From assembly GCA_947373155.1 (NCBI GenBank), contig CANBWO010000001.1, forward strand, positions 1 to 64,000: a DNA stretch of 64,000 bases, in the 5' to 3' direction. This DNA comes from Microbacteriaceae bacterium. GTDB lineage: Bacteria > Actinomycetota > Actinomycetes > Actinomycetales > Microbacteriaceae. Below the pieces are notes generated by a model, which was given only the letters and a program-made list of their open reading frames with translations, was not told the DNA's origin and ran no database searches. Below are positions 9,319-29,752 of this stretch, in pieces. Numbering within the stretch: position 1 is the stretch's first letter; the number at the start of each line of letters is the position of its first letter. Both the position numbers and the translations under genes were made by a program.

Positions 9319-11018
9319 CAGAGTCCTCGAACGCTAATCAATACCTGGGTTGCCCCAAGTGTGAGAATTTTGTCTGGAGAAGCTACGGCAGGAACGTAGA
9401 ACAAAAGCATGGTTCCGTAAACCGAACGAATTCCACTGGCACTTCCGGCGGCGCCAAGTAGCAGCTTTTCATTTCCCTGAACCGCCACGGCCTGAGTTGC
9501 TTTGTTTGGCTTGATGACATAGGTGTCACTCATGTAAACGGAAACCAACGCACCCGAATTGGCGGTTGAAAGGCTCATCACGTTTGGGTCGCCCAGGGCG
9601 TGGGTAACTGTGATTTTTCCGTTGTGCAAATTGGCCTTTTGTACTGCCTGACTTTGGGCTACCTGCTGATAAAACTCATCGTTAGCCACGTTAAACATTG
9701 GCGCGCTCAGACTCGATGGTCCTTGGTCAATCAGGTTTCCGAAAGCGGTCGGTAGGGCGTTTGGCGCGATCTTAAGAAAGAGCGAGTCGGGTGCGATCGG
9801 AATGGCTCCAACGCTGGTGGCTGCTACCGCGGGAGTGGCAACTCCCGGCAACATATCGATGTCGTACCAAAGCTGATACTGAGACCTAGGTGTGGCTTGC
9901 TGGAACACCAGCATCTGTGGAAGCGCTTTGCTGTCCGCTCCGGTGGCTAGGGCCATAACAACGCGCGGCCATTGATTTGAAGCAGCTGGGAGCCCGAACT
10001 TGAGGTTATCGGTCAGCAGTGGAGGAAGGTTGGGAATGTTTTTGGACGCAGCCTGAAGGTGATAGTGCGCCTGTCGAGCAGCCAGAGCCGGGCCAGCAAT
10101 GCGATCTACCAGCAACTTTGGATTGTGGCTGGCATCTGCTTTTCCGACGGAAACGGCAATTCGATTCACAATGTTTACCAGTTGTTTTTGGGTAACCACC
10201 GGAGGATCGAGTTTCACTTGAGAGGTGGTTGGCGTAGCAGTTACCGAAGGCGAGGCTTGTCCTCCGATCAAACCGCAACCACTCAAAGTCATTGAAAGAC
10301 CCAAGATGGCGCCAGCAACGGCAAGGTTCCTGGCGGACCTGCGACCTTTGGTAGGAGCCACGATGTTGCCACTCTTTCGGCGCAATTTTGGTCCTTGCGG
10401 TGCCTTTGGGGTTTTGCGCCTTGGTCCACGATCGCGACGCATGGTGTACCAGGCCCACCAGTTAATCAGGATCGCCAAAACTAGGAAAACGCCACCCACA
10501 ATCAGAAGCAAACGGCTTCCGGTGGTATCAACCGCTAACTGCCAAGTCAGTTTGATTTGCTGCGGGGCCGCAGAAATACCATCGGTGGAAAGCAGCATCG
10601 CGGCATCATCGGCTGTGTTGACTCGCAGTTGTACGTGATTGGAAGCGGACACCTCTTCGCGCCAGAGATCAGAGCCAGCCGGATTCGCAAACACGCCCAA
10701 ACCAGTTTCGTGCGAAACAGTTGCATCGCCGTGCTTGATGGTCACCAGGCTATGGCTGGTGTCGCCCACCCAAGCAACCACGTCGTTCTGTCTACCGACT
10801 GCAACGTTTACGTTGGCTGGCCCAGCAACTTCTACCTCGGGATTACCCGGGTACTGCGTGATCACACTGTGCGCAACGGTGACCAGCGGTTGTTTGGTAT
10901 TTAGAGTGATGAACTGCGTGTGATGCGTTGGTGGCAGCCAAATAGTTCTGAGGGCAACACCGGCCAGAATCATGATCACAGATACGACGAATAGAACTGC
11001 AGCAGTCAAAAAACGCAT
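9318..11018 (-). CDS. Two-part membrane protein with internal lipobox, function unknown
   Basis: I do not recognise this 566-residue protein. Residues 4-24 form a transmembrane segment, 25-165 an extracytoplasmic beta-like domain, and 169-190 a second membrane span followed by a strongly basic linker (RRDRGPRRK onward). Then comes a second export-signal-like stretch with the lipobox LSGC (Cys248), and a 300-residue soluble domain rich in Ala, Val, Thr and Pro. An in-frame GTG at codon 220 (10361) would begin a textbook 28-residue lipoprotein signal peptide. The gene may therefore encode a fused protein, or a membrane protein plus a separately initiated lipoprotein. It is coupled to the TPR gene and divergent from a coiled-coil gene. 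Confidence 0.7.
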   Translation of the reverse strand: MRFLTAAVLFVVSVIMILAGVALRTIWLPPTHHTQFITLNTKQPLVTVAHSVITQYPGNPEVEVAGPANVNVAVGRQNDVVAWVGDTSHSLVTIKHGDATVSHETGLGVFANPAGSDLWREEVSASNHVQLRVNTADDAAMLLSTDGISAAPQQIKLTWQLAVDTTGSRLLLIVGGVFLVLAILINWWAWYTMRRDRGPRRKTPKAPQGPKLRRKSGNIVAPTKGRRSARNLAVAGAILGLSMTLSGCGLIGGQASPSVTATPTTSQVKLDPPVVTQKQLVNIVNRIAVSVGKADASHNPKLLVDRIAGPALAARQAHYHLQAASKNIPNLPPLLTDNLKFGLPAASNQWPRVVMALATGADSKALPQMLVFQQATPRSQYQLWYDIDMLPGVATPAVAATSVGAIPIAPDSLFLKIAPNALPTAFGNLIDQGPSSLSAPMFNVANDEFYQQVAQSQAVQKANLHNGKITVTHALGDPNVMSLSTANSGALVSVYMSDTYVIKPNKATQAVAVQGNEKLLLGAAGSASGIRSVYGTMLLFYVPAVASPDKILTLGATQVLISVRGL

Positions 11019-11096
11019 CAGAAATCCATTCGGGGTAAACTTGTTGAGGTCTAAGGACCTGCAGATATTCTACCCAACCCCCTCAGGAGCGCCTCT

Positions 11097-27679: not shown

Positions 27680-28369
27680 TTACTCGCCCAATAGGTCTGG
27701 ACGAACCCGCTTGGTGCGCTCAAGCTGCTGTTCGTGGCGCCATTTTGCGATTGCTGCATGGTTGCCGCTGAGCAAAACCGGCGGCACGTCTAGGCCGCGC
27801 CAACTTGCTGGCTTGGTGTAGCTGGGGTATTCCAGCAGCCCCTCCCCCGAGTGGCTTTCCTCGGTAAGGCTTTCGGCGTTACCGATTACCCCCGGAATAA
27901 GACGAACTATGGCCTCGGTCATGGCGATAGCCGCCACTTCTCCGCCGTTTAAAACATAATCACCGATGCTGATGAGGCGCACTTTACCCTTGGTGGCCGC
28001 GTAGTCCACAACCCGCTGGTCGATTCCTTCGTACCTGCCGCAGGCAAACACGATGCGCTCTTCTTGCGCAAGTTCATAGGCCAACGACTGGTTGAAAACC
28101 TCACCCGCAGGTGAGGTAAAGATAATGGTGGCGTCGGTGTGTTCGCCCATGATCGCATCCAAAGCCAAACCCCAAGGTTCCGGCTTCATTAGCATCCCGG
28201 CGCCACCCCCGTATGGGGTGTCGTCTACTGTGCGGTGCTTGTCAAAGGTGTAATCGCGCAAATCGTGCGCTTCAAACTGAATCAGCCCGCTTTGACGAGC
28301 CTTACCCAGGAGTGAGAGATCTAGAGCCTGAAAGTAATCAGGAAAAATCGAAACCGCATCGATGCGCAA
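27680..28369 (-). CDS. trmD: tRNA (guanine37-N1)-methyltransferase TrmD
   Basis: Methylates G37 of tRNAs reading CNN codons, which prevents +1 frameshifting. The 229-residue SPOUT protein has the trefoil-knot motifs [27 protein letters not shown] and [14 protein letters not shown]. The start is TTG at 28369, 9 bp after the rimM stop, without a clear ribosome site. It gives the expected [11 protein letters not shown]-terminus. Order rpsP-khpA-rimM-trmD-rplS is the conserved one. Confidence 0.96.
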
Positions 28370-28378
28370 TTCAAACCG

Positions 28379-29008
28379 CTATTCGGCGTCTTCGGTGGAA
28401 GATTCGCCTGCGACGGTGTCTGCCGATTCGGTTTCTTCAGCAGGACTTGCTGGCTCGGGTGTTGCCAACTCAGGCAAGACTTCCTCGAATAGTCCAGTTG
28501 GTGGAGTAACCACTAGGGTTCCTGCTTTTAGGTCTACCGAGGGAACGATGGCTTTCACGAAAGGAACCATCACGTCTTTATCGCCGGTTTTGATTACCAG
28601 TAGGTCTTGAGCCGGGAAGTGCTCCACCGCAGTGACCACACCAACTTCTGCCCCATCGCGCAAGACCTTGAGTCCGACCAACTGGTGGTCGTACCAGGCG
28701 TCTGGTTCGGTTGGGAGTTCGTCGGCATCCGCATCCATGAGCAAAATGGCCTTGATGAGCGATTCCGCGGCGGTGCGGTCTGAGATGTCTTGAAGAAACA
28801 ACACTGGCGACTGGTTGTACCATCGCAGTTCAGCAACCGTAACGGTCTTGCCAAACCAAATCGAGTCTTCTGGCACCTGCAACTCAAAAGTTGCCCCCGG
28901 AACAAATCGTTCGTTCGGGGTGTCGGTGTAGAGCTCTAGTTTTATTGCACCTTTTAGACCGTGTGCCTTGAGCAGGCGGCCTATGCGTAGCTTGGTCGAC
29001 CTAGAAAT
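28379..29008 (-). CDS. rimM: 16S rRNA processing protein RimM, probable ATT start
   Basis: Assembly factor that binds S19 in the 30S head. The recognisable RimM sequence (IGRLLKAHGLKGAIKLEL, then FVPGATFELQVP) extends well upstream of the first in-frame ATG/GTG/TTG, a GTG at 28882 that would delete the first 42 residues of the domain. An in-frame TGA lies five codons before the conserved segment region. Between them the only codon giving the usual N-terminus is ATT at 29008, yielding MSRSTKLRIGRLL and a 209-residue protein overlapping the khpA stop by 8 bp. ATA or CTG further in are alternatives. The C-terminal ~35 residues are a Pro/Ala/Glu/Ser tail. Confidence 0.85.
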   Translation of the reverse strand: MSRSTKLRIGRLLKAHGLKGAIKLELYTDTPNERFVPGATFELQVPEDSIWFGKTVTVAELRWYNQSPVLFLQDISDRTAAESLIKAILLMDADADELPTEPDAWYDHQLVGLKVLRDGAEVGVVTAVEHFPAQDLLVIKTGDKDVMVPFVKAIVPSVDLKAGTLVVTPPTGLFEEVLPELATPEPASPAEETESADTVAGESSTEDAE

Positions 29009-29237
29009 CGGTCTTCACCACGTCTACTCGAATGTTCTTGCCGTCGGCCAAGGCCTTTACTACGGCGCGAAGCGAGTTAGCAGTGCGGCCGTTGCGCCCG
29101 ATCACACGACCCAGATCTTCTGGGTGTACGACAACCTCAAGTAGATCCCCACGAGAGGTGTTTCGCTTAGTCACGATAGCGTCTTCCGGGTGGTCGACGA
29201 TTCCCTTGACTAGGTGTTCGAGCGCAGCGGCTAGCAC
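29001..29237 (-). CDS. khpA: KH-domain RNA-binding protein KhpA (YlqC-like)
   Basis: A 78-residue single KH-domain protein with the conserved VIGRNGRTANSLR loop, the RNA-binding GxxG-type motif. In Gram-positive bacteria KhpA forms complexes with KhpB/Jag and affects cell elongation and division. The start is GTG at 29237, 5 bp after the rpsP stop. Its last codons overlap the proposed ATT start of rimM. Confidence 0.93.
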   Translation of the reverse strand: MLAAALEHLVKGIVDHPEDAIVTKRNTSRGDLLEVVVHPEDLGRVIGRNGRTANSLRAVVKALADGKNIRVDVVKTDF

Positions 29238-29242
29238 GATTA

Positions 29243-29752
29243 CTAAGCCTCTTCTGCTGGAGCCTCAGCCTCGGCTACTGGAGCCTCAACTGCTGCTTCT
29301 TCGGCTGCTGGAGCCTCTACTACTGCGTCTTCTGCAGGAGCCTCAACCTCTGCAACAACTTCTGCTGCAGGTGCTTCAACTACGGGTGCCTCAACCTTGA
29401 TCTCGGCCTTTGGCTTTAGGACAGCCTTCTTGTTTGCTTCAGCAACAAAAGCAACCTTTGGTTCCTTGACCTGAACCAGGTTAGGAGCCTTGGCATCGCC
29501 CTTGCTCTTCTGGAAGTCACCGGTGAGCTTTAGAAGTGCCTCAACCTGCTCGGTTGGCTGTGCGCCAACGCTTAGCCAGTACTGGGCGCGCTCGTGGTTA
29601 ACTTCGATGATGGATGGGTGCTGACCTGGTACGTAACGACCGATCTCTTCGATTGCACGGCCATCGCGCTTGGTGCGCGAGTCGGCAACGACGATGCGGT
29701 AGTGAGGCGCGCGGATCTTGCCTAGGCGCTTCAGGCGAATTTTTACAGCCAC
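29243..29752 (-). CDS. rpsP: 30S ribosomal protein S16 with long Ala/Glu-rich extension
   Basis: Small-subunit assembly protein S16. The frame extends to 29809, but GTG at 29752 (AAGGAAAAATT upstream) yields the canonical [20 protein letters not shown]. The protein is 169 residues, about twice the usual 80-90. After the S16 fold (to about 90) come a Lys-rich stretch and a ~50-residue Ala/Glu/Pro/Val tail with repeated EAPAAE-like units. Tails of this sort are common in Actinobacteria. It heads the rpsP-khpA-rimM-trmD group; 175 bp separates it from ffh. Confidence 0.96.

Follow-up and report, generated by a model that had tools for sequence, protein, structure and literature searches.

A probable AUU start codon of rimM overlapping the end of khpA in the Microbacteriaceae

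Introduction

Where does translation of rimM begin when its reading frame offers no ATG, GTG or TTG ahead of the conserved N-terminus of the protein? In Escherichia coli, the operon order is rpsP-rimM-trmD-rplS and rimM has a canonical start. In the window, i.e., the whole stretch of 64,000 nucleotides from a Microbacteriaceae bacterium analysed here, the genes on the - strand follow the order rpsP-khpA-rimM-trmD, with rplS, named from sequence, lying below. The features relevant to the question are the following.

29243..29752, - strand: rpsP (ribosomal protein S16); Pfam PF00886 (query from 29764); start probably GTG 29752, by N-terminal homology
29001..29237, - strand: khpA (KH-domain protein KhpA); Pfam PF13083, NF002761; GTG start
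29015..29019, - strand: GGTGA within khpA, 6 nt above the ATT; possibly Shine-Dalgarno-like
29015..29017, - strand: in-frame TGA closing the rimM frame upstream, three codons above the ATT
29006..29008, - strand: putative AUU start codon of rimM; no ATG/GTG/TTG between the TGA and the N-terminus; kept in relatives; synonymous constraint
28379..29008, - strand: rimM (ribosome maturation factor RimM); 209 codons plus stop if the ATT is the start
27680..28369, - strand: trmD, next gene downstream of rimM; Pfam PF01746; TTG start

The rimM Frame and Its Junction With khpA

Read on the - strand, the rimM frame runs TGA AGA CCG ATT TCT AGG TCG ACC AAG CTA CGC ATA GGC, with ATG, GTG and TTG absent between the in-frame TGA and the conserved LRIGRLLKAHG N-terminus of RimM, the first residue of which lies six codons past the ATT. 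The ATT (29008–29006) sits across the 3′ end of khpA (ATTTCTAG), whose last codons are GAT TTC TAG, and takes its bases from the penultimate khpA codon (usually one for Asp, here GAT) and from the initial base of the last codon. A sequence-only reading of this DNA had placed an in-frame TGA slightly upstream and had the ATT at 29008 overlap the khpA stop by 8 bp; both were borne out, the TGA being found at 29017–29015 and the khpA TAG at 29003–29001. The same reading gave the first canonical codon as GTG 28882, which was wrong, as the codon at 28882, located 42 codons downstream of the ATT, is TTG.

The product was assigned to the RimM family by its matches to TIGR02273 (127.4 bits vs. a cut-off of 66.2) and to PF01782 (residues 8–94, profile 1–83/84) plus PRC, both domains exceeding the curated cut-off; PF24986 was matched as well. 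For three of the five matched solved RimM chains, the alignment begins at query residues 6–9. In a crude codon-usage scan of the 67 ORFs kept in the window, rimM had the strongest coding signal, 9.9 bits over 38 codons, ahead of the first canonical start; the runner-up ORF reached 4.5 bits over 10 codons. In our reading, none of the normal start codons is available to rimM, and the gene very probably starts instead from a rare AUU that overlaps the end of khpA.

Occurrence of the ATT Among Related Genomes

A first genome search detected rimM in 56 of 59 genomes, including that of the window. The same-genus set comprises 40 genomes with a rimM match, 35 from this first search (own genome included) and five added later; G004 gave no match. 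The sequence-only reading had proposed an alignment of the khpA-rimM junction in close relatives as a check, and its outcome supports the ATT: 24 of the 40 genomes, own included, possess the ATT and no canonical codon anywhere in the open frame, and a further 13 possess it with canonical codons located only further up within khpA. As for the others, L015 has TTG codons just above the ATT, and L013 and L021 carry GTG in its place.

The broader set contains 186 non-redundant rimM loci: the same-genus set, the best 80 of 246 named loci and further stretches from the family and from other families (13 other-family rimM loci were fetched), the latter stretches being hand-picked from the matches listed, with a few per genus at most. 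We found that ATG, GTG and TTG are missing from the open frame above LRVGR in 39 of the 186 loci, 38 of which have the ATT at the khpA junction. We regarded as nearby any canonical start from 15 nt above the khpA stop onward, and applied this definition to the 184 loci with khpA located. No nearby canonical codon is present in 83 of them, and in 80 of these 83 the ATT stands exactly at khpA stop-5, that is, at or near the upstream stop as in overlapping gene pairs; L002 and L168 have ATT in another register and L253 has none. Among loci with a nearby canonical codon, ATT occupies stop-5 in 8 of 101. L253 belongs to another family of the order; its rimM is devoid of ATG, GTG and TTG in the open frame, and CTG is a possible start there.

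When the neighboring genes were judged by a similar rule, a canonical start was missing in none of the cases for khpA (0/179), trmD (0/82), rpsP (0/85) and rplS (0/51), with 5, 1, 3, and 0 more genes, respectively, beyond assessment. Under that rule, a canonical start is missing for rimM in 28 of 185 loci.

The junction can also be followed as a sequence pattern, GTRGTRGAYRVN-GATT-HCTRR, which was searched for in 398 evenly drawn genomes of the family representing 85 genera. It occurs in 80 genomes and 18 genera, in each case directly above a RimM N-terminus (every match was opened), and the reversed pattern used as a control gave no match in the 398 genomes. Classified by their start codons, canonical codons are absent from the open frame of 36 of the 80 matches, 43 have one only higher up within khpA (two of these were classed by eye, as the motif in the script missed QVRVGR) and one (L292) has a GTG nearby; the 36 matches and the 39 of 186 loci without a canonical codon are overlapping sets. 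The synonymous GAC version of the pattern is confined to 2 of the 398 genomes (L220 and L172), both of which have a nearby canonical start. The window junction itself falls outside the pattern because its KhpA has Lys replacing an Asp. When 396 genomes of the order were scanned with a looser pattern (GTNGTN...GATT), nine matches were obtained. Six come from outside the family and have no RimM N-terminus behind them; the remaining three (G198, G135, and G060), from the family itself, represent GTCGTC junctions with canonical codons past the khpA stop.

Codon Choice at the End of khpA and Alternative Starts

Is the ATT kept for the sake of rimM or of KhpA? The khpA Asp codon that makes the ATT is GAT in all 76 loci without a nearby canonical start, compared with 10 of 46 loci with a nearby canonical start and the codon in the same relative frame, and with 178 of 480 Asp codons in the interior of khpA from the former group of loci; at the two nearest khpA Asp codons, GAT is used in 21 of 74 and 12 of 75 cases. 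Four loci (L018, L019, L038, and L042) have Asn instead of Asp, coded AAT, so that the ATT is retained. The last khpA codon, providing the third base of the ATT, starts with T in 81 of 82 loci without and in 15 of 47 loci with a nearby canonical start, and its Phe, Ser, and Tyr alternatives all retain this T. It ends in C in 80 of 80 cases; therefore, codon 2 of rimM is Ser, Thr, or Pro. In 47 loci of less than 56% GC, the terminal khpA Phe is TTC in 45 of 45 cases, whereas the other Phe codons of those loci (rest of khpA and early rimM) are divided into 65 TTC and 63 TTT. Fisher values for these codon contrasts are extreme, computed ignoring the relatedness of the loci. With GAT in 76/76 vs. 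10/46 and 178/480 cases, KhpA alone is inadequate to explain the ATT. By comparison, the ATT and the flanking synonymous positions can be shown to be constrained when no canonical start is nearby, and the near-cognate ATT appears conserved beyond what the overlap or chance sequence explains. The proposal of the sequence-only reading that the ATT is the rimM start gains support from this retention in relatives beyond the needs of khpA.

The alternative that survives best, which we nevertheless hold to be unlikely, states that the ATT is kept solely as KhpA ends in Asp-Phe and that rimM starts elsewhere, either at a canonical codon within khpA or at another near-cognate codon. KhpA does not account for the codon choice (GAT vs. 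GAC, TTC vs. TTT), and its terminal Phe, Ser, and Tyr codons share the first T. The loci favorable to a start elsewhere are those 44 of the 83 without a nearby canonical start in which a canonical codon lies higher up within khpA in the open frame, as in Clavibacter, where an ATG is found 15 nt above the ATT; because of such codons, AUU may not be the sole start in these 44 loci and in 43 of the 80 pattern matches. Yet the 39 of 186 loci and 36 of 80 pattern matches lacking any canonical codon leave no such start to be used, and by eye no other near-cognate codon (ATA, ATC, ACG, AAG, or CTG) is common to all of these loci.

Fusion of RimM to KhpA by programmed +1 frameshifting where khpA ends, which would make a start codon unnecessary, is in our opinion very improbable. 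It agrees with the +1 position of the rimM frame relative to khpA in loci with ATT at stop-5 and with the overlapping ends, but gives no reason for GAT over GAC (76/76) or for the loss of the ATT where GTG appears (L013 and L021). Moreover, a slippery site is not conserved: khpA has TTC, TCC, or TAC as its final codon, and its stops vary (TAG 39, TAA 25, and TGA 18; L002 ends GAT TAG). Elsewhere, separate rimM starts occur in all three relative frames.

It is harder still to accept that RimM lacks its N-terminal part and starts at TTG 28882, leaving the upstream frame as a relic. This TTG is the first canonical codon of rimM in this genome, but the 42 codons upstream of it keep the RimM N-terminal domain, a coding signal and high identity with relatives, and relatives without canonical starts keep these codons too. 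Translated from the ATT, the protein covers TIGR02273 profile positions 2–165, while from TTG 28882 it covers 45–165 and the first 44 positions are lost; the intact N-terminal domain that the sequence-only reading had noticed over 42 codons above the first ATG/GTG/TTG was thus confirmed by both the frame and the profile. Finally, although the window comes from a 54-contig draft assembly, a one-base sequencing or assembly error is practically ruled out for the window, because the same ATT state is shared by 24 of 40 same-genus genomes, three of them single-contig (L020, L141, and L143), and it is present in other genera as well.

Phylogenetic Distribution and Natural Switches

In a tree of 183 rows, the ATT-making Asp codon underwent no changes among 76 loci vs. 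nine changes for the next Asp codon; with a longer alignment of 86 rows, the corresponding numbers are zero changes among 44 loci vs. six. Independent pairs on well-supported branches amount to three (183 rows) and six (86 rows), a number too small for tree-based contrasts to serve as evidence, and the tests on them were not significant; none of these few pairs of related loci points in the wrong direction, and about half are without difference. In the 86-row tree, loci with ATT but no canonical start nearby fall into two groups that stand apart from each other. The first corresponds to the window's own clade (ATT state in 38 of 43 rows), while the second, with a support of 94, includes Clavibacter, Herbiconiux, Terrimesophilobacter, and Cryobacterium (11 of 16 rows). 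The ATT state may go back to an ancestor of part of the family, or it may have had more than one origin.

Apparent switches between ATT and GTG were observed in L013, L021, L068, L097, L267–L269, and L292, where the ATT is lost, GTGGTG is changed, or both codons are present. The clearest pair is formed by L017, which reads GCG ATT, and its near relative L013, which reads GTG ACT and differs by two synonymous khpA changes; L021 reads GTG ACT as well. L068 and L097 represent intermediates with a GTG past the khpA stop, the ATT still present and the upstream GTGGTG changed, and L267–L269, which have GTCGTC junctions, retain the ATT beside a nearby canonical codon. Besides these three GTCGTC junctions, nine loci keep the ATT next to a nearby canonical codon, namely the 8 of 101 and L292.

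Shine-Dalgarno Pairing and mRNA Structure

The GGTGA upstream of the ATT can pair with GGATCACCTCC, the expected 16S 3′ end sequence, which occurs once in this genome. We determined that the last two khpA Val codons end in a purine in 77/77 and 77/81 cases without a nearby canonical start vs. 9/45 and 1/40 cases with one. We regard this as a pattern and not as proof of a Shine-Dalgarno (SD) sequence, since the pairing energy above the ATT (mean −6.1 kcal/mol) does not exceed that of synonymous shuffles (−5.7 kcal/mol; mean fraction as strong, 0.46); SD strength was rejected as proof of the start for the same reason. In the subclade with GTAGTAGAT..., there is almost no SD pairing (−1.9), which, like the shuffles, speaks against a major contribution of SD pairing. 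GTAGTAGAY, with a TAG in the rimM frame, stands above the ATT in L009, L010, L014, L016, L017, L018, L019, L038, L042, and L051, and this GTAGTAG subclade displays little SD pairing where it was computed.

Local structure hiding the AUU was also considered and rejected. Predicted pairing around the ATT (0.54, n = 80) is lower than at canonical starts (0.65, n = 100), so that a masking hairpin is not indicated; at the same place of khpA in loci with canonical starts the value is 0.67 (n = 47).

Proposed Mode of rimM Initiation

We consider it highly likely that the AUU at 29008 is a real, though weak, start codon, which would be reached mostly by ribosomes that have just finished khpA and would keep RimM low and sensitive to IF3; the start itself is drawn from the comparison of genomes, whereas output, coupling and IF3 response are what such a start would be expected to entail. 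The AUU would be read as fMet by the initiator tRNA, giving the N-terminus Met-Ser-Arg-Ser-Thr-Lys-Leu-Arg-Ile-Gly. Because AUU is a weak start, RimM would be produced at a small fraction of S16 and KhpA from the same mRNA, and the simplest function would be precisely a low level of RimM relative to S16 on one mRNA. Ribosomes terminating at the overlapping khpA UAG (AUUUCUAG) would constitute the main route to the AUU, and in most species the GGUGG/GGUGA in the last khpA codons may assist its use. IF3, in turn, should discriminate against such a start. Judged from the genomes compared, the conserved overlap is consistent with a tie of rimM to khpA translation, a tie to initiation fidelity through IF3 is likewise consistent with the data, and the arrangement suggests a low and possibly regulated level of RimM.

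Comparison With Known Non-canonical Starts

To our knowledge, conserved non-canonical starts are few in number. With its probable AUU, rimM is to be placed among the conserved near-cognate starts of infC, pcnB, sigR, cvfC1, ccpN, and lepA. We found no report of a non-canonical rimM start in titles and abstracts of the open-licence literature, among the matches listed. Since gene finders usually exclude non-canonical starts, the RimM N-terminus is possibly misannotated in many genomes of the family.

Like rimM, infC (AUU/AUC/AUA) is a translation-machinery gene with a lineage-conserved near-cognate start, a weak one against which IF3 should discriminate. However, infC has an upstream GGAG and autoregulates its own product, whereas rimM has a weak SD-like sequence within khpA, overlaps the khpA stop and encodes an assembly factor, for which control by IF3 would be expected. 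The E. coli pcnB gene has an AUU start which, according to the citing text, limits synthesis (Binns and Masters, 2002, as cited), as proposed here for rimM, but it is not a ribosome gene. The actinobacterial gene sigR of Streptomyces resembles rimM in having a non-canonical start conserved in the genus; that report describes a GTC start in 32 of 34 genomes (GTT in two), shown experimentally, repressed by IF3 and misannotated by gene finders (PMC5472188). By the same source, sigR differs from rimM in the GTC codon, the long AGGAGGTG SD, the experimentally shown start and its product, a stress sigma factor. In Staphylococcus aureus, cvfC1 (AUU) and ccpN (AUA) have conserved non-canonical starts as well; the source gives about 10% of AUG for their reporters and, unlike in rimM, extended SD motifs, and the genes are other ones (PMC13009471). 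For lepA of two species, a near-cognate start was inferred, as stated in PMC1780047.

A dedicated device restraining initiation seems to be shared with E. coli rimM, where initiation is reported to be held down by mRNA structure (Wikstrom, 1992, cited in PMC5318159); in the window rimM, this device would be the weak start codon, with less predicted pairing than canonical starts. What distinguishes the present case is that the weak start lies in a 30S assembly factor and that a series of species switches between AUU and GUG by synonymous khpA changes. Its interest resides in how widely the ATT start occurs, in the switches seen in nature and in a potential connection with 30S assembly.

infC and a Possible Link to 30S Assembly

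The near-cognate start of infC is the classic start of IF3 autoregulation. Among 30 infC loci of the same genus (L111–L140, with L138 from the window's own genome), the start of the N-terminal ISDPRIN appears to be ATC in 27, the usual form, and ATT in the other three, and by eye a GGAG is located a few bases above in each of them. In 12 of the 30 loci, a stop is found shortly before this codon, the interval being free of canonical codons; in 6 of 30, an in-frame ATG lies above the GGAG, and the start may differ there.

According to PMC5472188, IF3 represses non-canonical starts in Streptomyces and E. coli, so that a drop in free IF3 is expected to increase use of the rimM AUU. When E. coli is deprived of rimM, its immature 30S subunits retain IF3 and the IF3 level rises (PMC13246957), and RbfA together with IF3 gates immature 30S subunits (PMC9032327). 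One could speculate that the rimM AUU serves to gauge 30S assembly through a one-codon feedback loop, which many genera of the family would have kept, although we think this rather unlikely. When RimM is short, immature 30S subunits would accumulate and hold IF3; less free IF3, or initiation on imperfect 30S subunits, would then permit more use of the AUU, and RimM, along with IF3 from its apparently AUC/AUU-started gene, would increase until assembly recovers. Through the AUU of rimM, a feedback of initiation fidelity on ribosome assembly becomes amenable to testing.

Two minor observations concern individual frames. The rimM frame of L108 contains an in-frame stop soon after the N-terminus, which is likely a sequencing error, as the locus derives from a MAG contig whose coverage is given as 0.23. 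Elsewhere in the window, a 583-codon ORF (9321–11069, - strand) exhibits a weak coding signal (3.9 bits over 11 codons) in the stretch preceding its first canonical start and is possibly another case of a misjudged start.
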